Positions 688 to 18,370 of a stretch of 55,070 nt of DNA are shown in pieces; positions within the stretch are counted from its first letter, which is position 1, and every line of letters starts with the position of its first letter. Made by a program: the position numbers and the translations under genes. Origin of the DNA: Candidatus Loosdrechtia aerotolerans. Lineage in GTDB: Bacteria > Planctomycetota > Brocadiia > Brocadiales > Brocadiaceae. Below the pieces are notes generated by a model. That model searched no databases. It was given only the letters and a program-made list of their open reading frames with translations, and was not told the DNA's origin. The stretch is from contig SOER01000018.1 of the NCBI GenBank assembly GCA_021646405.1, forward strand, positions 1-55,070, read 5' to 3'.

Positions 688-1176
688 AAACCGGATGAAT
701 TAGCGGCAGTTAAAAAGTGGACTGACTTATGGAAAAATCTTTTAAGAGAATACTATACCTCAATTAGCAACAACTTCAAAAGATTAGTTGAGGATTTGAG
801 AAAATATGAATGCAAAAGGCATGAAGTTACAATCAGGATATGGTTGCAAGACGATAACATAATTGGGCCAGATGATGATACAGATTTAATCTGTATTGCT
901 TTGCTCACGAATACAGAATTGCTCTTTGAAAATATTTCAACAGTTAGAAAAGCAATCAGTCAAATGACAAGTTGGAGAATGAGAGCTTCTGATTTTGTTC
1001 GAGATAGAATTAAAAACAAACTGCTTGAACTTGCACAAGCTTCAATAATTAATTCGTCAATTGAAATTCAGGACTTAGGCAGAGTAGATATTTTGAAGAT
1101 ATGCGAATTGAAAAAAGAATCTGAGGATATTGATAAAAAATATGTTCACCGCTTAATACAAAAGGATGTTATTTAA
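688..1176 (+). pseudogene. 3' part of an unrecognised gene, cut by the IS630 element
   Basis: The frame that ends at TAA 1174-1176 is open back to 631 and has convincing protein character from about 688 (KPDELAAVKKWTDLWKNLLR...). The first usable start, TTG 796, is internal and has no ribosome-binding site, so the true 5' end was probably separated by the insertion. The visible 163 residues are helical and charged, rich in Glu, Asp, Lys and Ile, with no motif I recognise. The stop overlaps the ATG of the next gene by one base (TAATG), which indicates an original operon with the helicase and drm genes. It may be the C-terminus of a regulatory, ATPase or methylase subunit of the same defence system. 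Its function is unknown. Confidence 0.6.
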
Positions 1177-2915
1177 TGGCAAAACTTTTACCGCCATATA
1201 TTGATAAAAATTGCAAAAGCACAGGTGAAAGAATGCTGTTTGATATTTTTAAAAATAGCCCTTTTGCCAAGGACTGGATTATTCTTCACTCACTCAATCT
1301 TTCACAGCACACTAAACGTCTATATGGTGAAATAGATTTTCTGGTACTTATTCCAGACGGAGGTATATATGTAATGGAGGTTAAAGGGGGAAATGTAAAA
1401 TGTGTTGACGGAGTTTGGCATTTCACTGATAAATTCAACAACACATACACAAGCAACATCGGCCCGTTTAATCAAGCAAAAGATGCAATGTTTTCTTTAC
1501 GTTCAGCAATTGAAAAAGAATATGGCAAAGGACACAAATTTACAAAAATACTGTCTGGTTTTCTCTGTGCGTTTCCGCATGTAAGTTTTGACAAACACAG
1601 CGTTGAATATGAACCTTGGCAGATACTTGATAAGGATTCAATACGCGACAATATGGAAAACTTCTTTCAGAATTTAATTCAGCTGTTTATTCAAAAACAC
1701 AAAGGGCAAAAATGGTTTTCAGAAAAAGATTCATTACCTGATGTAAATGATTTGAACTTGCTTTGTGATTTTCTCAGAGGAGATTTTGAAAGAGTCAGAA
1801 CCATTAAAGAAAGACTTTTGGAATTTGATAAACAGGTAAAGTCATATACAACCGAACAATACAGAATTCTTGATTCTGTTCAAATCAATAATAGAAGCGT
1901 TACGCAAGGAAGCGCCGGAACCGGCAAGACCATGATTGCAATTGAATCGGCTATTAGAGCAGCATCAGAAGGCAAAACAGTTTTTCTCACTTGTTACAAC
2001 AGGTTAATTGGTGAATGGATGCAAAAACAAGTTGATGAATGGAAAGATAAAATTACTGTTTCAAACTTGCATAGTTACCTGTTTGAAGTTTCAAAAGGTT
2101 TTGATTATGATAAAACTCAAAGCAATAATCAGGATTTTTACACAAAATATCTTCCTGCACTGCTGAAAGATATTTTTCAGAAAGGAATTGAAAAGCAATT
2201 TGATAAACTAATTATTGATGAAGGTCAGGACTTAATCAGAGAAGGATACTTAAGTTTGTTTGATTCAATGGTCGTTGGTGGTTTGACAAACGGTAATTGG
2301 GAGATTTACGGAGATTTTGAAAGGCAGGCGATATTTGCCCAACTGTCAAAAAAAGAAATGCTTTCACTGATATACAAAGTTGCACAGCCAGCAAATTTCC
2401 TTTTGAAGATAAATTGCAGGAACACGAAGCAAATTGGAGAAGAAACATCTTTGCTTTCAGGATTTGAAAAGCCACCATTTTTACTTGAATATCTGGAAGG
2501 TATTCCTGTTGAATATGCTTTTTATAATAATCAGAAACACCAGGCGGAACTTCTGGAAAAACAACTCAAACAACTTTCTGAAAACAGATTACCATTAAAC
2601 GAAATGATAATTGTTTCACCAAAGAAATTTGAAAATTCTTGTGCTTCTTCTGTTTCTGGCATTACAATTAGAGTAATAAAACATACTAATGAGATTTCTG
2701 CAGAACAAAGCTATTACAGCTTTGCAACTGTGCAGTCATACAAAGGAATGGAAAGTAATTATATTTTGATTGCAGATATTGAAGATTTGACAAGCGACAA
2801 TGCAAAGTCATTATTATATGTTGGCATGAGCAGAGCAAGATATGGTTTGATAATGCTTATTGCAGAATCAATGAGAAGCCAATACAGAATAATTTTAAAA
2901 AGTAAACTTAATTAA
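1176..2915 (+). CDS. NERD nuclease-domain / superfamily 1 helicase
   Basis: A 579-residue protein. The N-terminus carries a NERD domain: GERMLF near residue 17, then GEIDFLVL and YVMEVKGG at about 50-72, with the Asp and Glu-x-Lys expected of this PD-(D/E)XK-like fold. From about residue 240 comes an SF1 (UvrD/Rep-like) helicase core: Walker A GSAGTGKT near 245, Walker B LIIDEGQD near 345, a motif III-like region GDFERQAIF near 378, and the C-terminal YVGMSRAR motif. A nuclease fused to a DNA or RNA helicase suits cleavage of invading nucleic acid. It starts at the ATG overlapping the preceding stop and ends one base before the DrmA-like gene, so these genes form one transcription unit. The block is visibly more AT-rich than the housekeeping genes further right, suggesting transfer. 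Confidence 0.85.
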   Translation: MAKLLPPYIDKNCKSTGERMLFDIFKNSPFAKDWIILHSLNLSQHTKRLYGEIDFLVLIPDGGIYVMEVKGGNVKCVDGVWHFTDKFNNTYTSNIGPFNQAKDAMFSLRSAIEKEYGKGHKFTKILSGFLCAFPHVSFDKHSVEYEPWQILDKDSIRDNMENFFQNLIQLFIQKHKGQKWFSEKDSLPDVNDLNLLCDFLRGDFERVRTIKERLLEFDKQVKSYTTEQYRILDSVQINNRSVTQGSAGTGKTMIAIESAIRAASEGKTVFLTCYNRLIGEWMQKQVDEWKDKITVSNLHSYLFEVSKGFDYDKTQSNNQDFYTKYLPALLKDIFQKGIEKQFDKLIIDEGQDLIREGYLSLFDSMVVGGLTNGNWEIYGDFERQAIFAQLSKKEMLSLIYKVAQPANFLLKINCRNTKQIGEETSLLSGFEKPPFLLEYLEGIPVEYAFYNNQKHQAELLEKQLKQLSENRLPLNEMIIVSPKKFENSCASSVSGITIRVIKHTNEISAEQSYYSFATVQSYKGMESNYILIADIEDLTSDNAKSLLYVGMSRARYGLIMLIAESMRSQYRIILKSKLN

Positions 2916-2916
2916 C

Positions 2917-5900
2917 ATGAGAGACGATATTCTGAAATTTATCAAACGGGAACTTATTGGGCCTGACCCTGTGAAGCCACATATACAGGGAAACGGAGAA
3001 GAAATTTTAATTAATGAACCACCAAGATTGAGATACGGCGCAGGAATCTTATTTCCGAAAAGTGCAAGATTTGGAAAAATTGATTCAACTTCAAATTCAA
3101 AAGACGAAAATGCAGTTTTGGAAAACGCGGAGGAAGGAAAAACCGATGATGACCCAGTCCAGACAACAGATAAAAATACCCCTGTTGATGTCAGTGAAGA
3201 TTTTGAAGAAGAAATAGGACTGGCAAATAGCTTTCTTTCGTCAGCAATGGGATTCAGTTGTTTTTCTAAAATTCCCAAAGAAGGTTTTAAGATAAAAGCC
3301 AACGCGGCGGTATATGAGAACGGAAATTACACTTATCAAAAAGATGAAGAACGCACAATAACACGAAAGGCTTACTACAGAATTCCTTTAGACCAGGAAC
3401 TTGTTCTGAAAGCTGATGAAATACCATTGCAGTCAGGAAAATATTTTGACAAAGCTTTGATTGGCAAAAACGGAAAGGAAATTAATCTAAAATTAAATAT
3501 CAGAAACAGAACACATGGAGACAATGCGGACAAAGGAATTCATTTACTAACTTTTACTTTGATAAACTTGAATTCAAGTGCAGCAGGAAACATCAGGGAT
3601 GAAGATTGCTTTTTCCAAGTTTCGTTTTCTGTAAGTGCTGCTAATGGTGAAAAATGTTTTTACCCTTACAAAGTTGCAGCATCTAAGACGGACAAAGAGG
3701 ATGAAAAATCAAACCGGTTACTTTTCAGAAAGAAAAATACTTTCGCAGTAGGACATGGATGTTCTCCATCGTGGAATGACCGCGATATTGATCTTACGGA
3801 TTCAATAACAACAGAAACAATTCCTTCTTACGAAATAAAACCAATAGTGCCGAATGAATTAAAAAGGGTTGAGTTGAAAATGTTTGACCTGAGTGATTTG
3901 TCAGGTGCAGACATTACTTCAAATCTTGTAAAGCTAAATTTAGAATATGAATTATGGATAAACAATCAGGAAGCAATTGCAAAAACAGAATTGAAAGACG
4001 AATATTTAGAAACTGCTTTGCGACACATTGGAAGTTGCCGTACATGCTTATTACGAATGCAAGAAGGAGTTGAATTAATAAAGTGTAATGAAAAAGCAAA
4101 TAGGGCTTTCAAGTTGATGAACAGAGCAATGTTGCTTCAACAACTTAATTACAGTATTCATACACGAAACTGGATAATTGAAAAAGGGAATATTACGGGA
4201 TTGACTCAGCCAAAATTAGACGGTCATAAAGAACCTGTTTTTCCAGATATAAAAGATAATAATACTTGGCCAAAAAATACGGATGGAAATTTAAAAGTCG
4301 GTTCGTGGCGACCTTTTCAGCTTGCATTTATTTTAATGAACCTGAATTCTATGCTGGATGCGGAACATCAGGACAGAGAAATGGTGGACTTAATTTGGTT
4401 TCCAACAGGTGGAGGAAAAACTGAAGCGTATTTGGGTTTATCTGCATTTACAATATTTCTGAAAAGATTAAAAGAAAAAAATGATTCAGGCACAACCGTG
4501 TTGATGCGTTACACTTTGCGATTGCTGACAGCACAGCAATTTCAAAGGGCAGCATCATTGATTTGTGCTTGTGATAAAATAAGAAAAGAAAATGAGGAAG
4601 AATTAGGAACTGCAAGAATTACAATTGGGCTTTGGGTGGGAGAGCTTACACCGAATAAAAGGAATGAAGCAAGGCAAGCATTTCAACATATGGAACAAGG
4701 GAGGGAAGAAGAAAATCCTTTTATTGTTTTGAAGTGTCCCTGGTGTGGTTCTCAAATGGGTTATCTGAAAGATGAAAAGAGGAATAAAGTAAAGGGCTAT
4801 AAAAGAAGAAGGGTTGGAGTGAACGAAACAATAGTTTATCAATGTGACAATTCAGAATGTGATTTTTCAAAAACTGATTTCAACCTGCCTTTGCTTGTTA
4901 TTGATGAAGATATTTATGACAATCCCCCTACTCTGTTAATTGGAACAGTTGATAAGTTTGCGATGCTTACATGGAAACCGGAAGCAAGAACACTCTTTGG
5001 TTTTAGAGATAATGGAGAAAGATTGTCACCGCCCGAACTGATTATTCAGGATGAACTGCATTTAATTTCTGGTCCGTTGGGTTCAATGGTTGGATTGTAT
5101 GAAACAATGATTGAAGAACTTTGTACAGCAAATAATGTAAAGCCAAAAATTATTGCATCAACAGCAACAATCAGTAGGGCAAAAGAACAAATCAATTCCC
5201 TTTACGGCAGAGGAACTCAGAATGTAAATATTTTCCCGGCTCAGTGTTTAAGTGCTGGTGATTCATTTTTTGCTTACGAAGATAATGAGAGTACAGGAAG
5301 AATTTACGCTGGCATATTTGCATCTGCGTTACCTTCACATGCAACAGCACAGGTGAGAGTTTTGTCTGCATTGCTTCAATCAGTAAAATCTATTTCGGTT
5401 ACAGATGAAATTTTAAGAGATCCCTACTGGACTGCTTTAACATATTTCAATAGCATCCGTGAGTTAGGTCATGCAGCTACGCTTATTCGTGCAGATATAC
5501 GGGAATATATGAATTCAATTTGGATTCGTAAAGCAATCAAAGGTGATGAAAGAAGGTTTATAAACAGAGACATTGAGTTGACAAGTCGTATCAATAGTTG
5601 CGATATCCCTGAATACCTTGAACATCTTTCAAAATCATGGACAGGAGATAAAACAGAATATCCGGTTGATGTTTGCCTTGCAACGAATATGATTTCAGTT
5701 GGTGTGGATATTCCACGATTAGGTTTAATGACTGTAATTGGGCAGCCAAAAACTACATCAGAATATATTCAGGCAACAAGTCGTGTAGGTCGTTCAAAAC
5801 GAGCACCTGGGCTTGTTTTTACAATCTACAATTGCTCAAAACCGAGAGACCGTTCACACTTCGAACATTTCCAGGAATATCATTCAAAAATATACAGCAA

Positions 5901-6327
5901 GGTTGAACCAACAAGTGTTACACCCTTTTCAGCACCGGCAAGGGAAAGAGCATTGCACGCAATCTTAGTTGGGCTGATTAGATTTTATTCAGAAGAAAGC
6001 AGAAATTCACCAAGACCATTTCCATGTTTGGAAATAATTGAAAGAGTAACAAGAATAATCTTTGATAGAGTAAATCTAATTGACAGAGAAGAGTATGAGA
6101 AAACTCTTAATCTGATTGAAGAAAAACTGGAATACTGGAAAAATGAATTGCCGTTGATTTATGGTTCATTTGGACAAATAACAGACATTCCACTGATGTA
6201 TCCGGCCGGAACAAATCCGCCAGAAGATATTAAAGCAAGGGCTTGGTCGACACCAACTTCAATGAGAAATGTTGATTCAACATGCGATGCAATTGTTATA
6301 AATGAATATATCAACATTGACAATTAA
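2917..6327 (+). CDS. drmA: DrmA-like DISARM helicase
   Basis: A 1136-residue superfamily 2 helicase. After an N-terminal domain of about 450 residues come Walker A PTGGGKTEAYLGL near 495, a zinc-ribbon-like insert (CPWCG near 606, paired with CDNSECDF near 650), a DEAH-type motif IIQDELHLISG near 708, motif III STATIS near 745, and the C-terminal helicase half with NMISVGVDIPRLG and TSRVGRS (about 928-958). This length and arrangement match DrmA, the helicase of DISARM phage-defence systems, and the next gene is DrmB-like, which strengthens the call. In described DISARM, DrmA and DrmB form a complex that loads on DNA and helps discriminate self from foreign DNA. No drmC phospholipase-D gene, drmD, drmE or DISARM methyltransferase is visible here. 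Missing partners could lie left of the IS element. Confidence 0.8.
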   Translation: MRDDILKFIKRELIGPDPVKPHIQGNGEEILINEPPRLRYGAGILFPKSARFGKIDSTSNSKDENAVLENAEEGKTDDDPVQTTDKNTPVDVSEDFEEEIGLANSFLSSAMGFSCFSKIPKEGFKIKANAAVYENGNYTYQKDEERTITRKAYYRIPLDQELVLKADEIPLQSGKYFDKALIGKNGKEINLKLNIRNRTHGDNADKGIHLLTFTLINLNSSAAGNIRDEDCFFQVSFSVSAANGEKCFYPYKVAASKTDKEDEKSNRLLFRKKNTFAVGHGCSPSWNDRDIDLTDSITTETIPSYEIKPIVPNELKRVELKMFDLSDLSGADITSNLVKLNLEYELWINNQEAIAKTELKDEYLETALRHIGSCRTCLLRMQEGVELIKCNEKANRAFKLMNRAMLLQQLNYSIHTRNWIIEKGNITGLTQPKLDGHKEPVFPDIKDNNTWPKNTDGNLKVGSWRPFQLAFILMNLNSMLDAEHQDREMVDLIWFPTGGGKTEAYLGLSAFTIFLKRLKEKNDSGTTVLMRYTLRLLTAQQFQRAASLICACDKIRKENEEELGTARITIGLWVGELTPNKRNEARQAFQHMEQGREEENPFIVLKCPWCGSQMGYLKDEKRNKVKGYKRRRVGVNETIVYQCDNSECDFSKTDFNLPLLVIDEDIYDNPPTLLIGTVDKFAMLTWKPEARTLFGFRDNGERLSPPELIIQDELHLISGPLGSMVGLYETMIEELCTANNVKPKIIASTATISRAKEQINSLYGRGTQNVNIFPAQCLSAGDSFFAYEDNESTGRIYAGIFASALPSHATAQVRVLSALLQSVKSISVTDEILRDPYWTALTYFNSIRELGHAATLIRADIREYMNSIWIRKAIKGDERRFINRDIELTSRINSCDIPEYLEHLSKSWTGDKTEYPVDVCLATNMISVGVDIPRLGLMTVIGQPKTTSEYIQATSRVGRSKRAPGLVFTIYNCSKPRDRSHFEHFQEYHSKIYSKVEPTSVTPFSAPARERALHAILVGLIRFYSEESRNSPRPFPCLEIIERVTRIIFDRVNLIDREEYEKTLNLIEEKLEYWKNELPLIYGSFGQITDIPLMYPAGTNPPEDIKARAWSTPTSMRNVDSTCDAIVINEYINIDN

Positions 6328-6338
6328 GAATTAATATT

Positions 6339-8219
6339 ATGCCAGCAAAAAAACCAATCAGAAGGTCACAGCTTATTTCCCCCTGGGGAGTTGGGCAAAT
6401 GATTAATTTCCCAAAGGATGAGTCATTAATGGTTGCCGGACTTGATTTATGGGAAGAAAAATTCAGGACACTTTCTGACCTTGAAGAGTTCATAATAACG
6501 GAAGAACGGTTAGCAAAAAGATTGGGTGTAAAAGAATTCAGGTTACCGCCGGATTTCAGAGACCCGGGACCTGGCGTTACAAATCCATCTTTGAAAATTC
6601 CATTCGTAAGATTTCCCCAATGGCATTATTGCACCCGATGTGGTCACATGGAAAATGTTTCAATTTTCCATTCTCAAAAACCAACTTGTTCTGGTGGTTC
6701 CTTTGATTCAGGAAGGTCATGTTCAAATATTGCTCCCAACAAACGCCAAAGATTAATTCCAGTTCGTTTCATTGCTATTTGTCCACACGGACACATACAG
6801 GATTTTCCATTCAGGGAATGGGTTCACGGTTCAACACCAGCAGAAGGAAATCATCGATTGAGATTAAGGGCAGGGAGAAGTTCAGGAGCATTGTCAGGCA
6901 TTGAAATTACTTGCAGTTGTGGAGCACATAAAACAATGGCTGGCGCATTTAACGAGCAATCACTTACAAAAATTGGAGTTACTTGCTCCGGTGGCAGACC
7001 ATGGTTAGGTGAAGAAGCCGAAAGAAATAACACGCAACATTGCGGACAACATTTAATAGTAGTTCAGAAAGGTGCATCTAATGTTTACTTCTCTCAAGTT
7101 CGTAGTTCAATTTATTTGCCTCAATGGGAAAAATCAGTAGACAGAAGAATAATAGAAGTTTTGGAAAAGAATTGGAATTGGCTTACCTCGGGTTTAGTTG
7201 ATGGGAAATTCGATAAGATGAGGTTCGAATTAGTTGCTGAACAAAAATTTAATCCTGAAAAAAAAGATTATTATACAGAAAAACTCCTTGAAGCTGCGAA
7301 TAAAAGGATAACAGGAGCAGAAAGTTCTACAACAGACGATTCAGAGGAAAAATACAGAAAGATGGAATATGATGCAATTCTTTCTGAAGCTGGAGGAGAG
7401 AATCAGGATTTCTATGTTACGAAGATGCAGGCGGAAACTTATGATGATTCAGAAACCGGATGGGCAATTAGTAGAGGTTTTACAAGTATAGGATTGCTTC
7501 ATAAGTTGAGAGAAACAAGGGCATTTGTAGGTTTTTCAAGGTGGCTCCCTGATGATGAAAAAAGTTTAGAAGCAAGAAAAGAGTTTATCAAACTTGGCAG
7601 AAGCATCAACTGGCTTCCTGCAATAGTTGTAAGAGGTGAAGGAGTATTCTTTGAATTTAGGGAAAAGCGATTAAAAGAATGGGCTGCAAAAAAAGAAGTG
7701 ATTGGGAGAGCAAATTATTTATCACAACACTATAATCAGCCAAGACAACAGAAAGGACAAAAGTTGAGAGTGATAAAGCCAGAGTTTGTTTTGATTCACA
7801 CTTTTGCTCATTTAGTGATAAACCAGTTCAGCTACGAATGTGGTTACGGAAGTTCTGCATTGAGAGAAAGAATTTATTGCAACCTTGAATTTCCAAACGA
7901 CACCATGAACGGAGTTTTGATTTACACTGCATCTGGTGATTCAGAAGGTTCATTAGGCGGACTTGTACGACAAGGGAAACCAGGTAATCTTGAAACAATT
8001 GTTTATAACGCAATTGAAAATGCAAGATGGTGCTCAAGCGACCCTATCTGTATTGACAGCCACGGACAGGGACCAAACTCATGCAATCTTGCCGCTTGTC
8101 ATAACTGTGCTTTATTGCCTGAGACTTGTTGCGAAGAATCAAACATGTTGCTTGACAGAGCAATGCTAATTGGAACTTTGGACAATCCTTCAACAGGATA
8201 TTTTAACATAGTAACTTAA
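6339..8219 (+). CDS. drmB: DrmB-like DUF1998 protein
   Basis: A 626-residue protein starting 11 bases after the DrmA-like gene. It opens with RRSQLISPWGVGQMINFP, typical of DrmB N-termini. It has several cysteine clusters that suggest zinc sites: CTRCGHMENV near 98, CSGG and CSNIA near 118-130, CSCG near 188. The C-terminal DUF1998 region includes LIHTFAHLVINQFSYECGYG near 488-505, then CSSDPICIDS, CNLAACHNCALLP and CCEESNMLLDRAML near 565-610. In DISARM, DrmB works with DrmA as the core complex. Length and motif order fit the family and nothing looks truncated. I infer an antiphage role from family and neighbours. Confidence 0.82.
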   Translation: MPAKKPIRRSQLISPWGVGQMINFPKDESLMVAGLDLWEEKFRTLSDLEEFIITEERLAKRLGVKEFRLPPDFRDPGPGVTNPSLKIPFVRFPQWHYCTRCGHMENVSIFHSQKPTCSGGSFDSGRSCSNIAPNKRQRLIPVRFIAICPHGHIQDFPFREWVHGSTPAEGNHRLRLRAGRSSGALSGIEITCSCGAHKTMAGAFNEQSLTKIGVTCSGGRPWLGEEAERNNTQHCGQHLIVVQKGASNVYFSQVRSSIYLPQWEKSVDRRIIEVLEKNWNWLTSGLVDGKFDKMRFELVAEQKFNPEKKDYYTEKLLEAANKRITGAESSTTDDSEEKYRKMEYDAILSEAGGENQDFYVTKMQAETYDDSETGWAISRGFTSIGLLHKLRETRAFVGFSRWLPDDEKSLEARKEFIKLGRSINWLPAIVVRGEGVFFEFREKRLKEWAAKKEVIGRANYLSQHYNQPRQQKGQKLRVIKPEFVLIHTFAHLVINQFSYECGYGSSALRERIYCNLEFPNDTMNGVLIYTASGDSEGSLGGLVRQGKPGNLETIVYNAIENARWCSSDPICIDSHGQGPNSCNLAACHNCALLPETCCEESNMLLDRAMLIGTLDNPSTGYFNIVT

Positions 8220-8269
8220 AGATAAAACTGAACAGAATATTTACTTTGTCTTGCAAGAGGGGATATTAC

Positions 8270-9412
8270 ATGGTGGTCAGAGGACAGGGCCATTCAATGA
8301 ATAGTTGTTTATTGCAGATTTCCAATTCTAATAGAATACATGCCCCTAATAGTGACCCACTTGTTACTGAAATCCGGGCTATTCTCGGTAAGTGCGATGA
8401 TTTTAGGGCTGAAAAGATAGCTAAAAGGGCACATTTACCATTGAAGTGGTTAGATGAAGCTCCTTCAATGAATGGTGAGAAGGGAATGGAGAAACTTAAA
8501 CATGAAAGAGGTGTGCTTCTGTTAAAAAATCGCACCAGCCCCTTTATCGAACAATTCCAACATCCCATTGGCAGGTGTGCGAAATTTTATAAATTAACAG
8601 CTTATAACAACTGTAATTTCTGGTGTGAATACTGCTACCTCTATCTCACATTCCGTACCATGCCTGTATCAACCCACTTCGTGAATTACGAGAAGATGTT
8701 CCGGGAGATTGTGAATTTTGACAGGGCAAATATACCTGATGCCCTCAGAATTCTGAATCTCGGAGAACTCTGCGACCCTTTGGCATTAGAAGATATCACC
8801 GGGTTTGCTGAAGAACTTATCCCTTTTGTTGCAAACGAAACACGAAAAACAAGACTCCTCTTTCTTACGAAAAGTGATACCATTCGTTCTTTATTGAATG
8901 TAAATCATGACAATAAGATTATTATGTCATTCAGCGTTAATACCAACATCATCCATCAGCAACTTGAACACCGGACACCGTCTCCAGAAGCGCGATTGGT
9001 TGCTGCAAAGAAATTACAGGAGTGTGGTTATGAAATACGTTTAAGGATAGACCCTGTTATATGGTATTCAACATGGGAAAAGGATTATCTTGAACTTGTT
9101 CAAAAAATATTTAGTTATGTTAACCCTGCACGAATTACCATAGGTGAATACCGCCCTTCTAAAGGACTCGCCACACATATAAGTTCACGCTTTCCGGAGT
9201 CCTCTCTCCTGAAAGTTACATCCGGACTAATTAGTGACGGAACAAAACTCCGCTACCCGGAAGAATACCGCATCTCTCTGTTTAGCACAATAATCAACGC
9301 GATAAAGAAATACGATAGCAATGTAAAATTGGCTCTCTGTAAAGAGGATGTAAAAATCTGGAAAGGCCTTGGTATGCCAATAAACAGTTTGTATTGTAAC
9401 TGCCTTGAGTAA
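8270..9412 (+). CDS. Radical SAM protein, spore photoproduct lyase-like
   Basis: A 380-residue protein. ATG 8270 is preferred because AGAGGGG lies 7 bases upstream; an earlier TTG at 8246 has no such site. The Fe-S motif is CNFWCEYC (CX3CX2C, residues about 114-121), followed by YLYLTFR as in SplB-type proteins. Downstream are RILNLGELCDPLALED, LLFLTKSD and an RIDPVIW segment, all consistent with the SplB/DUF1848-like radical SAM barrel. True SPL repairs a thymine dimer. This relative could act on DNA or on something else, and its substrate cannot be read from sequence. It follows the drmB-like gene by 50 bases on the same strand, so it may be part of the defence operon or a neighbouring cargo gene. 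Part of it is duplicated in decayed form at 18297-18370. Confidence 0.8.
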   Translation: MVVRGQGHSMNSCLLQISNSNRIHAPNSDPLVTEIRAILGKCDDFRAEKIAKRAHLPLKWLDEAPSMNGEKGMEKLKHERGVLLLKNRTSPFIEQFQHPIGRCAKFYKLTAYNNCNFWCEYCYLYLTFRTMPVSTHFVNYEKMFREIVNFDRANIPDALRILNLGELCDPLALEDITGFAEELIPFVANETRKTRLLFLTKSDTIRSLLNVNHDNKIIMSFSVNTNIIHQQLEHRTPSPEARLVAAKKLQECGYEIRLRIDPVIWYSTWEKDYLELVQKIFSYVNPARITIGEYRPSKGLATHISSRFPESSLLKVTSGLISDGTKLRYPEEYRISLFSTIINAIKKYDSNVKLALCKEDVKIWKGLGMPINSLYCNCLE

Positions 9413-10358: not shown

Positions 10359-10703
10359 ATGGCGGAAAAAAGTGAAAGACAGGAAAAAGGTATATCTTTA
10401 CCGAAAGCCGAAACCATAGCCGGAGCTATTGATGATTTAGCCAAGAAATATAAAGCTGCTGCCGATCTGGATTTTCAGAGACCTACAGCAAGAAATATAG
10501 CAGGCACTTTGCAAGATCTGGCTAAGAAGTACCATGCAATGGGGGAAATCAGCGTTCCTGAGGCAAAAAATATAGCTGGAACCATTGAAGACGTTGCCAA
10601 GAAGTATAAAGCAGCCTCTGAAGTGGATTACTCAAAGCCATTTGCTCAAGGTATTGCTGGCACACTGGATAACCTGGTCAAGAAGTATACGGGCATGGAA
10701 TAG
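10359..10703 (+). CDS. Four-repeat small protein, candidate RiPP-like substrate
   Basis: A 114-residue protein starting at ATG 10359, with AAGGAG 7-8 bases upstream; a TTG two codons earlier is not needed. After about 12 charged residues it consists of four imperfect repeats of 25-27 residues, the last one shorter. Their shared core is P-x-A-x-x-I-A-G-[TA]-[LI]-x-[DN]-[LV]-[AV]-K-K-Y, with the prolines spaced 27, 25 and 27 residues apart. There is no Cys, no Trp, no signal peptide and no membrane segment. Each repeat predicts a short amphipathic helix ending in Lys-Lys-Tyr. The genes that follow on the same strand encode radical SAM enzymes with PqqD-like ends, so I infer that this is a multi-core substrate modified at each repeat, perhaps at Ala-Gly-Thr or Lys-Lys-Tyr. 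It could instead be a plain structural repeat protein. I recognise no known family. Confidence 0.7.
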   Translation: MAEKSERQEKGISLPKAETIAGAIDDLAKKYKAAADLDFQRPTARNIAGTLQDLAKKYHAMGEISVPEAKNIAGTIEDVAKKYKAASEVDYSKPFAQGIAGTLDNLVKKYTGME

Positions 10704-10843
10704 ATATAATTAAAATCACTAGAGAAAGTTGTTTTTCCAGAGGAAATCGTCTTAAAATATGTTTAGACCGTGAAAACTTTGTTATATCTTACCCAAATGT
10801 AAAAATGCTATGAAATTGCATTCGGCGCTGATAATTTTCTTAC

Positions 10844-12100
10844 ATGAAATTAATTTATGAGATTGAAAAGAATCCATCTACCAGGCTTTCAAAGGGAGAA
10901 ATCGATACCCATTTTCAAAAGTTATCTGCCCAAGGCTTAAAGTCCCTTCATTTGGATATAAGAAACACCATTACATGTACCATTCCTTCCATAATCGAAC
11001 GCGCTTCCGTGTTTTTCGAAGAGATTATCCTTTATTGCATGCCAAACTGTTCAGAACTAATTCCGTCACACGTTACCACACCTCTTTTTGTTGACAGTCA
11101 TGTATCTGCTCATGAGGTTCCACATCTGGAGCCTTGCGTTCACTCGAAAGAAAACAAATTGCCCTCCGACAGGTTCAGTATAACACTCTTCCTGGATCTT
11201 CAGAGAACTTTTGATCCAACGGCGTTATTTGATTGGATCAATAACCAGAATATCTCATATATAAAGTTGTTTATTTCAAATACGGAAAACCTGCAAAGCA
11301 GCCTTTCCATAGAGGCATTAAGACCTCAGGCACAAAAGATGGTACAGTTTATTTCAATGCTTGCAAACCGAAATTTACGAATCGAAATAACAAGTCCCCT
11401 CCCTTTTTGTCTTTTCTCCGAATCCGAACTTGGTATGCTTGCGCGTGAATGCCTGCCTAATTACGATTATAGAAGAGACATTATTATATTGGCTATCAAC
11501 ACGGCTGGTGCAGTCTTTCCGTGGCATGGCCCAATGCGTTCGCTAGTTGTTCCGGTAGAAAATAATATGACATTCGTACAGATTAATAATTTTTACAAAG
11601 TTAGAAGGCATGAACTTGCCCGTAGATTCACAGCATTTAGCGCTTGTGAAAATTGCGATTTGAAGAGAAGAGGCTACTGCAGTGCCAACTACTTTTATAG
11701 CCCAACCCTCTATGAGGAAGAAAGATTCGGATATTATCCAATAAGTTCTTTTCCAGGCCTTATGTCCTTTCTTTCCTGTAGAATCCACTCCGATATAAGC
11801 GTGAAAAAGAAGGAAGATTGCTGCATCCTGTCTATTAAAGAAGACCGAACACTATCGTCCCAGCAGTTAAACCGGACTGCCTTTCTTTTATGGGAATTCT
11901 GTTCAGAACACGGGAAGCTTTCCGACGCAATTGATAAAGTTTGTCGCCTTTGTGGAGGAAAATATTTGAACGATTTTCTTGCAATAGCAGACATGCTGCA
12001 ACGAAGTGGTTTCCTCATCCTTGAACCTTCCGGGGATTTATCTTCAAATATGCAGATATCATTACGTGAGTGGATGTCGGAGACGTGGAGAAATTTATGA
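10844..12100 (+). CDS. Radical-SAM-fold protein lacking the cluster motif, PqqD-like C-terminus
   Basis: A 418-residue protein from ATG 10844, with no strong ribosome-binding site. It is a divergent paralogue of the next gene: SPLPFCLFSESELGMLAREC (about residues 183-202) aligns with CPLPYCIFSDEDMGFLSRES there, and the following ~30 residues also track. It has no CX3CX2C motif near the N-terminus, so it should not bind the radical SAM cluster. A reduced SPASM-like piece CENCDLKRRGYC lies at about 267-278. The last ~90 residues (LSSQQLNRTAFLLWEFC..., GGKYLNDFLAIADMLQRSGFLIL) look like the PqqD/RRE winged-helix fold that binds peptide leaders. It probably acts as a substrate-binding or scaffold partner of the active enzyme. 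Its stop overlaps the next start (ATGA), implying coupled translation. Confidence 0.65.
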   Translation: MKLIYEIEKNPSTRLSKGEIDTHFQKLSAQGLKSLHLDIRNTITCTIPSIIERASVFFEEIILYCMPNCSELIPSHVTTPLFVDSHVSAHEVPHLEPCVHSKENKLPSDRFSITLFLDLQRTFDPTALFDWINNQNISYIKLFISNTENLQSSLSIEALRPQAQKMVQFISMLANRNLRIEITSPLPFCLFSESELGMLARECLPNYDYRRDIIILAINTAGAVFPWHGPMRSLVVPVENNMTFVQINNFYKVRRHELARRFTAFSACENCDLKRRGYCSANYFYSPTLYEEERFGYYPISSFPGLMSFLSCRIHSDISVKKKEDCCILSIKEDRTLSSQQLNRTAFLLWEFCSEHGKLSDAIDKVCRLCGGKYLNDFLAIADMLQRSGFLILEPSGDLSSNMQISLREWMSETWRNL

Positions 12101-13371
12101 ATATAGCCATAACGAATGTCTGTAACCGCAGATGCCCCTTCTGTTATCAAAGTAAAATCATGGAAAATGCAAAAAATTCCGGAGGAACCGAGATTTCTCT
12201 GGAAAATTTTTTACACGTCATAGATTTCATCATTAAATCCGGAGAACACAAATTGCACATGGTTGGGGGTGAACCGACTTTGCATCGCAGTTTTGCCGAG
12301 ATAGTAAGAATCGTGGGTGAGAATCCATTCATACACCAGGTAATTCTTTTTACCAATGGCGAGTTCAAACCTTCCACCATAGAACCTATCATAAAATATT
12401 CCAATAAATTCGTCATATCTATAAACGTGCCGGAACCCCGCTATGAGACCGGTTCCAGGTTAAAACGGCTCCACAACAACCTGCAGCACCTGTCTCTAAA
12501 TGGCGTACCGTTCGATCTCAGCTATGTTGTTTCCACGCCAGATTTCGATATGTCGTTTCTCCTTGATTACACAGAAAAGTATGGGATAAAATCTCTTCGC
12601 TGGGCATTAGCTTTTCCTGTTGTCGAGAGAGCCCATCATATTGTCAAAGAAGAACTCAAAAACATTGGCAGAAAAGTGGTGTCATCTCTTAGAATGCTCA
12701 ACGCCAGAGGGATCAAAACATATGTAGATTGTCCTTTGCCTTATTGTATCTTTAGCGATGAAGATATGGGTTTTTTATCACGGGAGTCTTTAAGTGTAGT
12801 AAACTGGGGATATTGTGGATTGACCTTAGAGGTCAATCCTGATCTAACCATAAAGGCATGTCCGGTACAGCGGGAGCAGGAACGGGTGCCTCTTTCCTTT
12901 TTTAGAAATATGCAGGAAATGGAAAGGTTTTTCTTTGCGAAGATGAGCGTTTATAAAGCCAATCATATTCTTTTTGAAGAATGCAGGGATTGCCGTTATT
13001 ACCTTAATAACCGTTGCCAGGGAGGGTGTCTCGGCTACAGCAAGGACAAGTATGAGGGCATGCAGGAGAGTGGTATAAGTGCCCTCTGCAGTACCCTTCT
13101 TTCCAGGGATCCGCATATCAGAAAGTTACCTTTTTTAAAGGTTAGGGAAGATAGAGGCATGCATCAAATTTATTCCTCCGTATCCCAACAGGTAAAGTCT
13201 GAAACAATAGACGGTATCTGTCTCCGGTTGTGGAATGAGTTGTCTTCTGAGCCAAAGCTCAGTTCTATTCTTAAAGGTAAATCCATGGAGGAAAAAAACG
13301 CTGCACTTTTTTTTATTGAGCGGCTTCAAAGGATTGGATTCGTAGATTTATACCTCATTGACCGAAATTAG
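12097..13371 (+). CDS. SPASM-domain radical SAM enzyme with PqqD-like C-terminus
   Basis: A 424-residue protein. ATG 12097 overlaps the preceding TGA (ATGA) with GGAG just upstream, and is preferred over GTG 12070. The cluster motif is CNRRCPFC (CX3CX2C, Cys 9, 13, 16). The SAM-binding GGEP motif is at 57-60. A SPASM/twitch region with auxiliary-cluster cysteines, CRDCRYYLNNRCQGGC, is at about 295-310, with CGLTLEVN and CPVQ upstream. From about residue 350 the sequence (IDGICLRLWNEL..., LFFIERLQRIGFVDLYL) resembles a PqqD-type peptide-recognition domain. Enzymes of this design install crosslinks or other modifications on ribosomal peptides. Substrate by context: the four-repeat protein at 10359. 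Confidence 0.8.
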   Translation: MNIAITNVCNRRCPFCYQSKIMENAKNSGGTEISLENFLHVIDFIIKSGEHKLHMVGGEPTLHRSFAEIVRIVGENPFIHQVILFTNGEFKPSTIEPIIKYSNKFVISINVPEPRYETGSRLKRLHNNLQHLSLNGVPFDLSYVVSTPDFDMSFLLDYTEKYGIKSLRWALAFPVVERAHHIVKEELKNIGRKVVSSLRMLNARGIKTYVDCPLPYCIFSDEDMGFLSRESLSVVNWGYCGLTLEVNPDLTIKACPVQREQERVPLSFFRNMQEMERFFFAKMSVYKANHILFEECRDCRYYLNNRCQGGCLGYSKDKYEGMQESGISALCSTLLSRDPHIRKLPFLKVREDRGMHQIYSSVSQQVKSETIDGICLRLWNELSSEPKLSSILKGKSMEEKNAALFFIERLQRIGFVDLYLIDRN

Positions 13372-13379
13372 AGACCAAT

Positions 13380-15794
13380 ATGAAAACCCTTCTTCTTTTT
13401 CCACCAGTGTGGAATGTTCACGCTCCTTATTTAGCACTCCCCCTTCTGGCTGCAAATCTGAGAAAGTCCGGCAATGAAGTTGATATAATAGATTGTAACA
13501 TCGACTTTTTTGACAGGATTCTCTCTCCGGAATATCTCCATCGCGCTTTGGGCAGGGCTGAAAGCATCCTCAGAAAACCCGAAAAAGGTACCCTGGAAAA
13601 CGCTATGCGCGAGATGGCAATATTTATGGGACCAGAGCTTATCAATTCCATTACCGTAGCAAAAGAACACTACCGCTCAATGGAAGCATTGCAAAAATCA
13701 GAATGTTACGAATGGAGCCGTAATATAATCGGTGCATCTGTAAACCTTGTATCTTCAAGCTTTAAAGGACTAAAAATCAACTTTAACGGGGTCTCCTTTA
13801 AAGGACTCTCATTTTCAAATTCAAGGGAACTGCTGAATTTTGTTAAAAATTCAAACGAAAACAATATATTTGCGGAATATTATGAGGAGATAGTTAAACC
13901 GCTAATTAAAAAGAATGGTTACGGCCTGGTCGGTCTTTCTGTGGCAGACAGGGGGCAACTTATGGCGGCACTTACATTTGCTATAGAAACCAAAAGGGTA
14001 TTTGATGATTCCGTTAAAATTGTTTTTGGCGGGAACTTTTTCACCAGGATTGCGAAGAGATGGAAAGAACCCCACCCTTTCCAGGGTTTTATTGACTATA
14101 TCATTTTGATGGAAGGTGAAAATGCTATTGTAGAGCTGGTTGAGTCCCTAAAGGACGGCGGCGACCTAAAGAGAGTCAGTAACCTCTGTTATGCTGAAAA
14201 CGGAAATATTTTCTATACAGACAACCGGAATGTGGATATAAACAACTCTCCATTTCCGGATTTTTCCGGATTTCCGTTGAACCGTTACTTTCTACCAAAG
14301 TTAGTCTTACCGTCATATATGTCCAGAAGTTGTCCCTGGAACAAATGCACCTTTTGTACGATTGCCGATGCAAGCGGAAAATTCAGAGCGCGTTCGGCAC
14401 AAAGGATTGTGGAAGAAATTGAATTCTTAAAAAACAGGCATAGTACTTCTTATTTCACCTTTGTTGATGAATCTCTCTCTCCGGGGCTTGTAAGGAAGAT
14501 GTCCGGGGCAATTATAGAAAAAGGCCTGGATATCAAGTGGTATGGAGAGGCAAGACTGATTCCGGGCTTTGACGATGAAGTCCTGGGAAAAGCATGGCAG
14601 TCAGGCGCAAGGTTGCTGCAATTCGGCCTGGAGTCCTATAATCAGCGCATCCTGGACTTGATTAATAAAGGTGTGAATGAAAAAGATATTATTCCGTTAC
14701 TGAGGCGTTGTCTCTCAAAGGGGATATCCTTTCATCTTTTTTGCATATTAGGATTTCCTATGGAAACTACAGATGAAGCGATGCGGACATTGTCGTTTTT
14801 GGACGAAATTATTTCTGTGGCCGAAAACGAATATCAAAACCCTTACTGCACGAAGGGACTAAGCACTTTTGGCATGGAAAGCGAAACGCCTATTCACAAG
14901 GACCCTGAGAGATTCGGCGTCAGGATCATACCATCCGACGAAAACAATGACCTGGCTCTGGATCTTAAATACGAGGTATCCTCAGGTCTTAGTTCTGAAG
15001 ATGTGCAGCAATTGCTCGATAAATACACCGGGATAAATGTATTTACGGAACTTGCAGAGAAATTGAGCATTTTTTTCTGTAACAGGATGATCCCCGTCCC
15101 ACCTCAGAAAGAAGAAGAGTCCTTTGTCAGGTGGTCCAATTACAAGGAAATGTCATTGCATTCCGGGAGAAAAGATAAAACTTTTTGCATGTGGGACGCA
15201 AATTTTGACAATAAGGCAGATATTATCAAGGTCGCCCCGTGGATCAAAATAAAGGATGTATCCTATGATTTTACAACCTTTGATCATGCCCGGAATAATG
15301 CGGCGATTATCGCATACAATCTTAGAAAAGGCAGGATCTTTTGTTTGACGCAGAAGCAAAAAATGCTGCTTGAGAAAATAGGCGATGGGCGTCCAAACGA
15401 TTGGTATGTAAGTCTGGCGAAAGAAGACCGTTCCTTATACAAAAACCTTATCAGGCTTGTACAACTTGGCGTTATTACCATGGATTGTGAAGAAATATTG
15501 GTTGATTTTAAGGAAGACAAAATCATAGAGACCTCTTTGCTTCCCTTCGAAGATATAAGCTTTCACGGAATTTCAGGCGACAGGTATGTCCTTTTAGACA
15601 GGGCCCGTGAGAAAGTGGTGGCATTAAACCATACCGGAGCACTGATCTGGGCGATGATTGGCAATGAAATACGGATACGATTGCTTCTGGCCAGTCTTCA
15701 GCAGATATACGGTAAACATTTTCAATGGGAGCATTTATCAGGTTTCCTGCGGATGTTGTATCGGGAAGAGGTTCTTTTTCTTTCGAGGCTTTAG
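13380..15794 (+). CDS. B12-binding-type radical SAM protein with PqqD-like C-terminus
   Basis: An 804-residue protein starting 8 bases after the previous gene. The N-terminus (LLLFPPVWNVHAPYLALPLLAANLRKSG) is the Rossmann-like cobalamin-binding fold found in B12-dependent radical SAM proteins, continued by YGLVGLSVADRGQ and KIVFGGNFFTR. The cluster motif at about 319-327 is CPWNKCTFC, a CX4CX2C spacing instead of the usual CX3CX2C. FVDESLSPG and GLESYNQRILDLINKG follow as in the family barrel. The last ~75 residues (RYVLLDRAREKVVALNHTGA, FLRMLYREEVLFL) match the PqqD-like pattern. Likely chemistry is C-methylation or another B12/radical reaction on a peptide, inferred from family only. The canonical DxHxxG cobalamin motif is not visible, so base-off His ligation is not expected. 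Confidence 0.75.
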   Translation: MKTLLLFPPVWNVHAPYLALPLLAANLRKSGNEVDIIDCNIDFFDRILSPEYLHRALGRAESILRKPEKGTLENAMREMAIFMGPELINSITVAKEHYRSMEALQKSECYEWSRNIIGASVNLVSSSFKGLKINFNGVSFKGLSFSNSRELLNFVKNSNENNIFAEYYEEIVKPLIKKNGYGLVGLSVADRGQLMAALTFAIETKRVFDDSVKIVFGGNFFTRIAKRWKEPHPFQGFIDYIILMEGENAIVELVESLKDGGDLKRVSNLCYAENGNIFYTDNRNVDINNSPFPDFSGFPLNRYFLPKLVLPSYMSRSCPWNKCTFCTIADASGKFRARSAQRIVEEIEFLKNRHSTSYFTFVDESLSPGLVRKMSGAIIEKGLDIKWYGEARLIPGFDDEVLGKAWQSGARLLQFGLESYNQRILDLINKGVNEKDIIPLLRRCLSKGISFHLFCILGFPMETTDEAMRTLSFLDEIISVAENEYQNPYCTKGLSTFGMESETPIHKDPERFGVRIIPSDENNDLALDLKYEVSSGLSSEDVQQLLDKYTGINVFTELAEKLSIFFCNRMIPVPPQKEEESFVRWSNYKEMSLHSGRKDKTFCMWDANFDNKADIIKVAPWIKIKDVSYDFTTFDHARNNAAIIAYNLRKGRIFCLTQKQKMLLEKIGDGRPNDWYVSLAKEDRSLYKNLIRLVQLGVITMDCEEILVDFKEDKIIETSLLPFEDISFHGISGDRYVLLDRAREKVVALNHTGALIWAMIGNEIRIRLLLASLQQIYGKHFQWEHLSGFLRMLYREEVLFLSRL

Positions 15795-15807
15795 CCAGAC
15801 AAAACAT

Positions 15808-17736
15808 ATGAAGCTCAAAATTATCCTTGTAGGTCTTAACATCGGCGGGAATGTTCCCATGGGTCTTGCATATCTGAAAGCCTATGTAATGTCTTTGTCA
15901 CATCTTGCTGGTGAGATTGAAATAATTATTCAAGATTATGATTTTCTGACAATGCCAGAATACATAGCAGAACATGTTCTCCTGGAAAAGCCCTATATCG
16001 TAGGATTCAACGTCATGCATGGAAGTTTAAGGACGGTTACAAAGGCTGGCAGGTACATAAAGCAGATAAGCCCGGATATAAAAATAATCCTCGGCGGGGT
16101 AGAAATTACCCCGATTGCGGAGGATGTCATGAAGACGAGTCCTTTCGTTGATATCATAGTATGTGGTGAAGGAGAACAAACCTTTGCGGAAATATTGGAG
16201 GCAGTGCTTAAAGATGAATGTTGTTTTGAAATACCCGGCACTGTAGTGCGCCGACATGGAGAGATAAGAGTGAATCCCGAAAGGCAGCTTCTCGACATGA
16301 ATTCTATTCCTTCGCCCTATCTGACAGGGGTTATAGATTGTTCAAAATATCATGCCCTGCATATCGAAACCTTCAGGGGTTGCCCTTATTCTTGTGATTA
16401 TTGCAACGAGGGGCGTGGTTTTAAAGAGATCAGGAGTTTTTCCCGGGAAAGGATATTTGAAGAGTTGGAGTTTATTCTCAAGGCTGGATGTAAGAATGTT
16501 AAATTCTACGATACAACCTTTAATTTCGATCGGGAAAGAGCGCGGAACATTCTTGAGTTCATCGCCAGAAATAATTGTCAAGAGACAAAGTTAAGATTTG
16601 GGGCTGAGGTGCGTATGGAGTTGTTTGACCCGGAGATGGTCGAACTAGCTCTTAAGGCTAATATGATAGACATCGAAACAGGAATGCAGTCAATACGGGA
16701 GAAAACCCTTAAGGGCATCGGCCGTGTAAATAATATGAATAAGTTTAGAGAAAATGTCGGGTATTCTGTTAAAAGAGGCATTAGGGTTCTGGTCCATATT
16801 ATGGGAGGGCTTCCGGGAGATACACTTTCCGATGTATACGAAGCATATGATTACGTGATGTCTTTAGGTGCGACACCCTGCATTTTTCATACAAAAGTCC
16901 TGCCTGGTACGGTTCTTTTTAAACAGGCCAGCAAGGAGAACTACGTCTTCGACCCGGACCCGCCTTATGACATGATTAACAACACATCTTTTAATTTACA
17001 ACAATTCCAAAGATATAATACATTTGGTCTTGCCCAGATACTCTTATCTCCTTACAATAGTTTAATCCGCTGTCTATACAGCAATATTAACATGCATCCC
17101 TCCCGGGTTATAGAACGATTTGCAAAACTTCTCGAATCCGTCGAGGAGTGGCAAAGAATAGTCTTAAGGTATAAATGGTGGGATGCTACTATAGATCCCT
17201 CATTCATGGCTTATGTCATACGAAACAGACACATATGGGATGACGTCCTGGCAGGTCTTATTGACGAAATAGGAGATTCGCTTACCGCTCATGAGAAGAT
17301 GGTGATCGATGATTTTAAAAATTATCTTTGCGCGTTCGAGGAGGTAAGAAGGATGCAGCCGCCAGGGTCTTTGTCAACACAACATATTGCGGAAGATATG
17401 TCCTGCATTCTCTCGCAAAGTCAGCGTTTTTTAGTCTTTCGGTTCGATATCAGACCTTTAATAGAGAACGCGGAATCAAGCCTGGGTGATATTAAAGAAG
17501 AGATGACAAATTTATTGATAACAAGGAATGCGAACGGCACATTCACGAAGGTAATTAACCCCCAGATGAAATTTCTTCTTGAAAGTTTTGTAACCCCAAC
17601 CCGGTTTAAAGACGCTATCAGGAACCTTACTGGTTGTGAATTTACCATCCTCAGTGAGGAAAATAAAGACTTATTTAGAAATATGTTTAGAGATATGATA
17701 AAAGATGAAATATTGCAGGTAATGGAGAGCATATGA
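15808..17736 (+). CDS. B12-binding-type radical SAM protein
   Basis: A 642-residue protein. ATG 15808 is chosen because the family N-terminus starts there (MKLKIILVGLNIGGNVPMG); the frame is open further upstream only inside the preceding gene. Residues 1-150 form the cobalamin-binding-type domain (IVGFNVMHGSL, IKIILGGVEITPIAEDV, DIIVCGEGEQTF). The radical SAM motif is CPYSCDYC (CX3CX2C) at about 191-198, followed by FYDTTFNFDRERA and VLVHIMGGLPGDT. It has a helical C-terminal extension of about 250 residues whose role is unclear. It lies 13 bases after the previous gene and overlaps the GNAT start (ATGA), so it belongs to the same operon. Unlike its three neighbours I see no PqqD-like end. 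Confidence 0.78.
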   Translation: MKLKIILVGLNIGGNVPMGLAYLKAYVMSLSHLAGEIEIIIQDYDFLTMPEYIAEHVLLEKPYIVGFNVMHGSLRTVTKAGRYIKQISPDIKIILGGVEITPIAEDVMKTSPFVDIIVCGEGEQTFAEILEAVLKDECCFEIPGTVVRRHGEIRVNPERQLLDMNSIPSPYLTGVIDCSKYHALHIETFRGCPYSCDYCNEGRGFKEIRSFSRERIFEELEFILKAGCKNVKFYDTTFNFDRERARNILEFIARNNCQETKLRFGAEVRMELFDPEMVELALKANMIDIETGMQSIREKTLKGIGRVNNMNKFRENVGYSVKRGIRVLVHIMGGLPGDTLSDVYEAYDYVMSLGATPCIFHTKVLPGTVLFKQASKENYVFDPDPPYDMINNTSFNLQQFQRYNTFGLAQILLSPYNSLIRCLYSNINMHPSRVIERFAKLLESVEEWQRIVLRYKWWDATIDPSFMAYVIRNRHIWDDVLAGLIDEIGDSLTAHEKMVIDDFKNYLCAFEEVRRMQPPGSLSTQHIAEDMSCILSQSQRFLVFRFDIRPLIENAESSLGDIKEEMTNLLITRNANGTFTKVINPQMKFLLESFVTPTRFKDAIRNLTGCEFTILSEENKDLFRNMFRDMIKDEILQVMESI

Positions 17737-18269
17737 AAGTATTGGAGAAAGACAACGATATGTTTTTAGTAAGGCTTACCAGTAAAGATATTCATGAGGT
17801 TGCCAGGATTTATCAGGAAAATCCTAAATTTTTCAAACTTCTTACAGGCACAGAAGAAATTCCTCTGGCATACATAGAGAGTGAAATAGAGGGTATTCCC
17901 CAGAATTTTAACAAAGAAAACAAATTTTTCATGGGAATTTTTTTAAAAATCTCAAACACAATGATAGGGGTTGCTGATTTTTTAGTCAGTTATCCTGTGT
18001 ACGGCAAAGGGTGTCTTGGCCTTTTACTTTTATCAGAACAATTCCAATCTCAGGGTTATGGAAAAAAGGCTGTTCAGCTTGTTGAAAAATGGGCTTACGA
18101 ATGTTATGCAGTCAGAGAAATAACTCTTGGAGTGGAATTGATCAACCAGAAGGCTTACGCCTTCTGGTCAAAGTGTGGCTATGTGCCCACAGGAGAAATA
18201 TTTGAAAATACCGCAATGGGGCAAACCCATAAGACCGAACTTTTTAAGAAAATTCTGAAGGATGTTTGA
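17733..18269 (+). CDS. GNAT family N-acetyltransferase
   Basis: A 178-residue protein whose ATG overlaps the preceding TGA. It has the GNAT fold signs: GVADFLVSYPVYGKGCLGLLL, the acetyl-CoA loop QSQGYGKKAVQLVEKWA (motif A, about 108-124) and LINQKAYAFWSKCGYVPTGE (motif B, about 137-156). As the last gene of the radical SAM operon it could acylate a lysine or amino terminus of the repeat protein, whose repeats each end in Lys-Lys-Tyr. It could equally be a self-protection enzyme. The acceptor is unknown. Confidence 0.8.
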   Translation: MKVLEKDNDMFLVRLTSKDIHEVARIYQENPKFFKLLTGTEEIPLAYIESEIEGIPQNFNKENKFFMGIFLKISNTMIGVADFLVSYPVYGKGCLGLLLLSEQFQSQGYGKKAVQLVEKWAYECYAVREITLGVELINQKAYAFWSKCGYVPTGEIFENTAMGQTHKTELFKKILKDV

Positions 18270-18296
18270 TGTAACTTTAAAATTTTACTGTTAATT

Positions 18297-18370
18297 CCTT
18301 ATTGAATACAAATCATGACAATAAGATTATTGTGTTATTCAGTATCAATACCGACGTTATTCATCATAGA
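18297..18370 (+). pseudogene. Decayed fragment of the SplB-like radical SAM gene
   Basis: About 72 bases match 8892-8963 of the radical SAM gene at roughly 80% identity by eye, in the same frame: NHDNKIIVLFSINTDVIHH here against NHDNKIIMSFSVNTNIIHQ there. Similarity ends abruptly on both sides. A short open frame runs on to 18544, but I see no homology in the rest. This is a remnant of a paralogue, probably left by a rearrangement at the right edge of the radical SAM operon. Confidence 0.7.

Follow-up and report, generated by a model that had tools for sequence, protein, structure and literature searches.

The described systems closest to the locus analysed here are RiPP pathways with a SPASM-type radical SAM (rSAM) enzyme that bears an RRE, i.e. 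those of PQQ, the sactipeptides and thuricin CD, in which a small ribosomal substrate is likewise encoded beside the enzyme. In thuricin CD maturation, the two rSAM proteins TrnC and TrnD act together, in a complex that depends on RREs (PMC12093266). For TvgA/TvgB, it has been described that an rSAM enzyme modifies several units of one repeat precursor (PMC9062424). B12-type rSAM C-methyltransferases of RiPP pathways (TIGR03975; PoyB/PoyC, bottromycin) occur as two enzymes per operon, and the PoyC type has the motif Cx7Cx2C (PMC5682303). GNAT enzymes, which N-acylate Lys/Orn side chains, are found together with Lys-rich substrates in the loci of selidamide-type RiPPs (kamptornamide, nostolysamide; PMC13060382).

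The locus lies on a 55,070-nt stretch of DNA from Candidatus Loosdrechtia aerotolerans, the whole of which is called "the window" here. It differs from the SPASM/RRE systems in that the substrate has no Cys and that B12-type rSAM enzymes and a GNAT are encoded in addition; furthermore, TrnD is an active rSAM enzyme, whereas the partner of the SPASM enzyme in the window lacks the SAM cluster. TvgA has short TVGG repeats and is accompanied by transporter and peptidase genes, in contrast to the helical repeats of about 26 residues in the window, where neither gene is present. The window also has two B12-type rSAM enzymes, but the first of them (B12-rSAM-a) stays below the TIGR03975 cut-off, has a Cx4Cx2C motif and is fused to a C-terminal PqqD-like domain. 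It shares the GNAT and a Lys-rich substrate with the selidamide loci; however, the GNAT consists of a single domain, there is no lanthipeptide synthetase, and N-acylation of Lys is only putative.

Two kinds of loci, most of which contain a relative of the SPASM enzyme (see below), were included in the comparison. As in the window, a substrate (with repeats or Tyr) is encoded alongside the enzymes, both in the Tyr-repeat loci (L219-L221 and L194, with a SPASM homologue plus a DynA/DarE-like rSAM) and in the poly-Tyr loci (L200, L225, L231), and the latter have a B12-rSAM in addition. In contrast to the window, the substrate sequences are unrelated, no pseudo-rSAM or GNAT was seen, and the SPASM homologues of the Tyr loci lack an RRE-like C-terminus. 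L225 combines PqqD, a SPASM rSAM, a second rSAM, a B12-rSAM and a lasso-B2 peptidase, and thus the claim of a preliminary description of this DNA that known systems use one or two such elements was too strong. The same description had called the combination undescribed, and indeed the open-access literature gave no description of the operon. The ingredients are each known, and what is undescribed in the literature searched is their combination, the substrate with its helical repeats, and a twin of the SPASM enzyme that bears an RRE and lacks the cluster.

The six genes are located on one strand (positions 10359-18269; Table 1). From the second gene on, the spacing is operonic, as had been noted before, and the five enzyme genes are connected by ATGA overlaps or spaced by 8-13 nt. 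Genes 3, 4 and 5 match radical SAM families (E-values of 1e-15 to 5e-20), and gene 6 matches the GNAT family (E 1e-11). The locus contains neither an exporter nor a leader peptidase gene, in agreement with the preliminary description; both are common in RiPP clusters, albeit not universal. A genome-wide search for the C39 peptidase family was also negative. G+C-rich short hairpins are more numerous in the operon than in shuffled sequences, and nearly all of them are situated within coding sequence. Taken together, the operon probably encodes a RiPP-type post-translational modification pathway. This reading, which had been proposed previously, is supported by RREs detected by profile, by conservation in a second species, and by relatives that are encoded beside repeat or poly-Tyr substrates.

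Table 1. Positions of the operon features in the window and of Tyr-rich substrates and loci of SPASM enzyme relatives
Feature	Position	Strand	Remark
Putative substrate/precursor, 114 aa, four repeats	10359..10703	+	Sequence; 98% identical in G001
140-bp gap, substrate gene to enzyme genes	10704..10843	+	~190 bp larger in congener G001 (L010)
Pseudo-radical-SAM protein (pseudo-rSAM), 418 aa, paralogue of SPASM enzyme	10844..12100	+	
SPASM-type radical SAM enzyme, 424 aa	12097..13371	+	ATGA overlap with pseudo-rSAM gene
B12-type radical SAM enzyme a (B12-rSAM-a), 804 aa	13380..15794	+	8-nt gap before
B12-binding radical SAM enzyme b (B12-rSAM-b), 642 aa	15808..17736	+	13-nt gap before
GNAT acyltransferase, 178 aa, single-domain	17733..18269	+	ATGA overlap with B12-rSAM-b gene
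Tat-signal-like Tyr-repeat protein, L192	6795-7163		
Tat-signal-like Tyr-repeat protein, L193	200-616		
Tat-signal-like Tyr-repeat protein, L194	9240-9596		
Tat-signal-like Tyr-repeat protein, L217	4851-5333		
Tat-signal-like Tyr-repeat protein, L218	1817-2161		
Tat-signal-like Tyr-repeat proteins, L219	6976-7350, 7522-8001		
Tat-signal-like Tyr-repeat protein, L220	5084-5497		
Tat-signal-like Tyr-repeat protein, L221	4544-5020		
Tat-signal-like Tyr-repeat protein, L223	7136-7537		
Poly-Tyr locus, L225	2323-10277		
Poly-Tyr locus, L231	3745-8822		
Poly-Tyr locus, L200	10216-17397		

The putative substrate gene has a strong SD motif, AAGGAG, close upstream of its ATG. The protein consists of four repeats of ~26 aa with the invariant pattern P.A..IAG......KKY. 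Chance can be discounted as the origin of the repeats, because the best self-match over 16 residues has 12 identities, compared to a maximum of 8 in 1000 shuffles, and because the repeat DNA pattern occurs three times versus 0 expected. Eleven residues precede the first repeat, no signal peptide is apparent, and the composition includes no Cys, no Trp and five Tyr. Thus, the Cys thioether donor that characterises sactipeptides and ranthipeptides is absent. Membership in a known family was rejected, as neither Pfam and NCBIfam above their cut-offs nor PDB and plasmid searches gave a match identifying one; the best PDB match was a de novo designed protein (E 0.06). Pattern searches across 84,980 species retrieved no relatives, with the restriction that they see only those that have kept the 8-residue motifs; in the substrate scans, permutations of the four repeats were used as alignment rows purely to derive degenerate patterns. 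One candidate on a viral contig (L068) was rejected because the similarity was restricted to one chance helix.

The mature product could be the whole repeat protein, i.e. a cytoplasmic, modified structural or metal/cofactor-binding helical protein without a division into leader and core, and we give this reading a chance not far short of even. It is compatible with the near-perfect helical repeats and their resemblance to a designed protein, with the very short stretch ahead of the first repeat, and with the lack of a signal peptide and of peptidase, exporter or C39 genes. However, peptidase or export genes may be unlinked, and the substrates of some relatives carry Tat signals.

The preliminary description had proposed a search for the repeat protein beside the same enzymes in other genomes, and this search was successful. 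The whole operon is present in one congener (G001), with protein identities of 95-98% and all six frames intact. The substrate is 98% identical, next to the same enzymes and more conserved than these. Hence, as is characteristic of RiPP systems, a ribosomal substrate gene adjoins modifying-enzyme genes in both genomes. The dN/dS values of the six genes versus G001 are about 0.12-0.37, and therefore the pseudo-rSAM gene (about 0.23, no stops) is also regarded as maintained. The dS values of the operon are 0.05-0.20, in contrast to 0.46 for a flanking gene for a spore-photoproduct-lyase-like (SPL-like) rSAM, which suggests that the operon was exchanged recently or is under unusual constraint. 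The substrate and SPASM genes are absent from 96 other relatives, where the weak matches are unrelated or represent single remote rSAM proteins. Likewise, a joint profile of the pseudo-rSAM and the SPASM enzyme was applied to a sample of 392 Planctomycetota, which overlaps with the 96 relatives, and the other 390 genomes yielded only remote single rSAM proteins. The operon is known from two genomes only, both congeners.

The joint profile also retrieved homologues in Nitrospirota, and a SPASM profile to which these had been added retrieved many in Desulfobacterota. The homologues beside Tyr substrates have phmmer values of 1e-36 to 1e-41 and identities of 25-29%. In nine loci, a Tat-signal-like Tyr-repeat protein is encoded directly upstream of the SPASM homologue. 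Examples of the repeats are YYNYGDYYYNYGD (L220), YSRSYYNYSRY (L218, L219), YANYADYTNYAN (L221), SGYTSGYTS (L217) and TNYGAYTNYGAY (L223), and the proteins tested belong to no NCBIfam or Pfam family. Most of these loci contain a second rSAM; both second rSAMs tested (L194, L220) resemble the DynA/DarE cyclophane/ether formers, and some adjoin a GT9 glycosyltransferase. These loci seem to represent a system that has no name yet and is widespread in the two phyla.

L225, L231 and L200 are candidates for a poly-tyrosine RiPP class. In L225, L231 and, with the genes arranged differently, L200, a PqqD gene directly precedes a peptide of 29-48 aa that ends in poly-Tyr, e.g. STYYYYYYY or QWYYYYYYYWY. 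The peptide is accompanied by a more remote rSAM, a B12-rSAM and genes for an HprK-related kinase, a lasso-B2-type peptidase or an ABC exporter. A SPASM homologue is found with PqqD, the poly-Tyr peptide and a B12-rSAM in L200 and L225, and L231 has only the remoter rSAM. L225 and L224 also share a SPASM homologue, a B12-rSAM and a lasso-B2-type protein. No repeat or poly-Tyr neighbour was seen for L195, L196, L222, L224 and L226-L230, although contig ends truncate some of these loci. The open-access literature gave no account of poly-Tyr precursors, nor of rSAM substrates with a Tat signal and Tyr repeats.

In a tree, the SPASM enzyme of the window falls within the assemblage of the Tyr-locus homologues, with weak support. 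Because its relatives adjoin repeat or poly-Tyr substrates, the enzyme can be tied to peptide maturation, an argument that is independent of the RREs, and this genomic context supports a RiPP-type pathway. The window substrate has no homology to the Tyr-repeat proteins and is not Tyr-rich. As the nearest relatives accompany Tyr-repeat or poly-Tyr substrates, the Tyr of each KKY is predicted to be the most likely target of the SPASM enzyme.

To characterise the C-termini, a profile of 26 PqqD domains from the same genome and its relatives was run against 390 tiles of window proteins, including a small number from spurious frames. The best matches were the C-termini of B12-rSAM-a (84%) and the pseudo-rSAM (73%), compared to 9% for the next-best unrelated tile. 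B12-rSAM-a was also above the PqqD cut-off in a genome-wide search. The domains comprise about residues 338-393 of the pseudo-rSAM and residues 736-778 of B12-rSAM-a; a possible second copy upstream in B12-rSAM-a (about 643-699) is weak (18%). The profile detected no PqqD-like/RRE domain in B12-rSAM-b. The C-terminus of the SPASM enzyme reached 5% (noise) alone and 86-89% when profiled with its paralogue, which partly carries this score. An AF2 model (pLDDT 69, two sequences) predicts an RRE-like winged helix at about residues 345-424. Its top two VIA matches were the leader-bound lasso RREs 5v1v and 6jx3, with middling Z values of about 6, and Foldseek gave no significant match with the model. 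Three PqqD-like C-termini had been claimed, and the profile check that had been suggested for them gave matches by profile and weak matches by fold: those of the pseudo-rSAM and B12-rSAM-a are supported by profile, whereas the case for the SPASM enzyme consists of paralogy and a modest fold match. PqqD-like winged helices are found outside RiPP clusters, too (PMC7470986), which counts against the RiPP reading. Judged from sequence, RRE/PqqD-like domains, which are a feature of RiPP systems, appear to be present in the operon's maturases.

For B12-rSAM-a, the RiPP maturase model TIGR03975 is among the closest named models. The matches of the two B12-type enzymes to TIGR03975 (136.3 bits and 1e-39 for B12-rSAM-a, 80.2 bits for B12-rSAM-b) are below the curated cut-off of 281.85, and the Cx7Cx2C motif is present in neither. 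B12-rSAM-a has a weak B12-binding match (2e-5, below the Pfam cut-off). B12-rSAM-b has the motif CPYSCDYC (Cx3Cx2C), a B12-binding match of 1.5e-15, and similarity to KedN5 (160 bits, below the KedN5 cut-off of 700). KedN5-like methyltransferases are known from small-molecule pathways. B12-rSAM-b was rejected as an ortholog of the B12 enzymes of the poly-Tyr loci, as other B12-rSAMs score alike; that it is not specifically closest to the B12 enzymes of the Tyr loci argues against the RiPP reading. Residues 1-549 of B12-rSAM-a represent a core common to a family widespread in Planctomycetota; the same genome and most of the anammox relatives encode a paralogue of it. The use of B12-rSAM-a as an operon marker was abandoned, because the matches listed elsewhere, including one in Collinsella (L074), belong to this core family; no SPASM, pseudo-rSAM or substrate gene is located alongside. 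The Collinsella aerofaciens B12-rSAM (L074, 7995-10271) is the best relative of B12-rSAM-a outside the genus among the matches listed (325 bits); a comparable PqqD-like stretch (40%) is located at its C-terminus, a SPASM partner is missing, and two MFS fragments adjoin.

Alternatively, the enzymes could build a small molecule or a lipid, and the repeat protein could be a carrier, a scaffold or an unrelated neighbour. The many B12-type rSAM enzymes in anammox genomes, the KedN5-like character of B12-rSAM-b and the gap between the substrate gene and the enzyme genes would be in accord with this, as would the one core paralogue of B12-rSAM-a that was examined, which adjoins argininosuccinate synthase and two-component genes and no peptide. 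We nevertheless consider it improbable, because the anammox paralogues lack the PqqD-like extension of B12-rSAM-a, RRE-like domains occur in two further operon proteins, the repeat protein is in place in G001 and more conserved than the enzymes, and the SPASM relatives accompany peptide-like substrates.

The SPASM enzyme has the cluster motif CNRRCPFC plus eight conserved auxiliary Cys; the 11 Cys that it shares with four relatives comprise CxxxCxxC and the auxiliary ones, including C..C.......C...C. Pfam and NCBIfam SPASM models gave no match above their cut-offs. The product of gene 2 matches no rSAM model, nor TIGR04150, which represents the pseudo-rSAM of GG-peptide systems (cut-off 250). 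It is a paralogue of the SPASM enzyme (blastp 1e-10; about 24% identity); the alignment excludes the first 120 residues and starts with the second barrel half, from where it includes the SPASM part and the C-terminus. None of the three CxxxCxxC cysteines is present, and three of the eight auxiliary-cluster Cys are missing as well, so that the designation as a cluster-less radical SAM homologue was correct. An AF2 model with the paralogue as the only other sequence was set aside (pLDDT 37). It is very improbable that the PqqD-like C-termini are mere remnants, or have no role beyond contacts between proteins, and that the pseudo-rSAM is a decaying duplicate: its divergence, the lost SAM cluster and the noise-level score of the SPASM C-terminus alone would fit, but the gene is intact in both species at the dN/dS given above, and its C-terminus holds the higher PqqD score of the pair, while decay predicts otherwise.

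For the favoured RiPP-type pathway, we infer the following chemistry, order of steps and product fate. The three RRE domains would dock the N-terminal stretch of the substrate or the helical repeats themselves, and the pseudo-rSAM, paired with its active SPASM paralogue, would be the subunit that holds the substrate, in analogy to the RREs of TrnC/TrnD. In every repeat, the invariant K-K-Y would be oxidised or crosslinked by the radical chemistry of the SPASM enzyme. The two B12 enzymes may methylate unactivated carbons, the candidates being the invariant Pro, Ile or Ala, and the GNAT may acylate Lys or the N-terminus of the substrate. As a leader peptidase, an exporter and an export signal are all lacking, the modified protein would be kept in the cell as a whole, or unlinked genes would process it. 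A more specific version is tentative and on balance doubtful, i.e. that the SPASM enzyme is a member of a so far uncharacterised clade of maturases acting on Tyr of repeat proteins, that its cluster-less twin presents the helical repeats, and that radical oxidation, C-methylation and acylation at each repeat lead to a new modified intracellular repeat protein and not to a secreted peptide. If the RiPP-type reading is true, the operon would represent a new RiPP-type class, in which the substrate consists of helical repeats, a pseudo-enzyme acts as partner, and three rSAM enzymes are encoded together. Its hosts would be anammox-type bacteria, for which few peptide products have been described so far. 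The link to the Tyr-repeat and poly-Tyr substrates of related SPASM enzymes singles out one specific target residue that can be tested, and it hints at a broader family of maturases that apparently has no name.

The surroundings of the operon were also inspected. Just downstream, positions 18295-18366 of the window contain a 72-bp copy (83%) of a segment from within the SPL-like gene that lies upstream of the operon (8246-9412), as though a duplication or an insertion had left it behind. The synteny with G001 stops there. The drmB gene of G001 is truncated and lies beside a pair of transposase genes (IS3-type by eye). Positions 1176-9412 of the window harbour a defence-like run of a NERD/UvrD-type helicase and a DrmA-like helicase (both named by eye), DrmB (NF038324, 3e-142) and the SPL-like rSAM.
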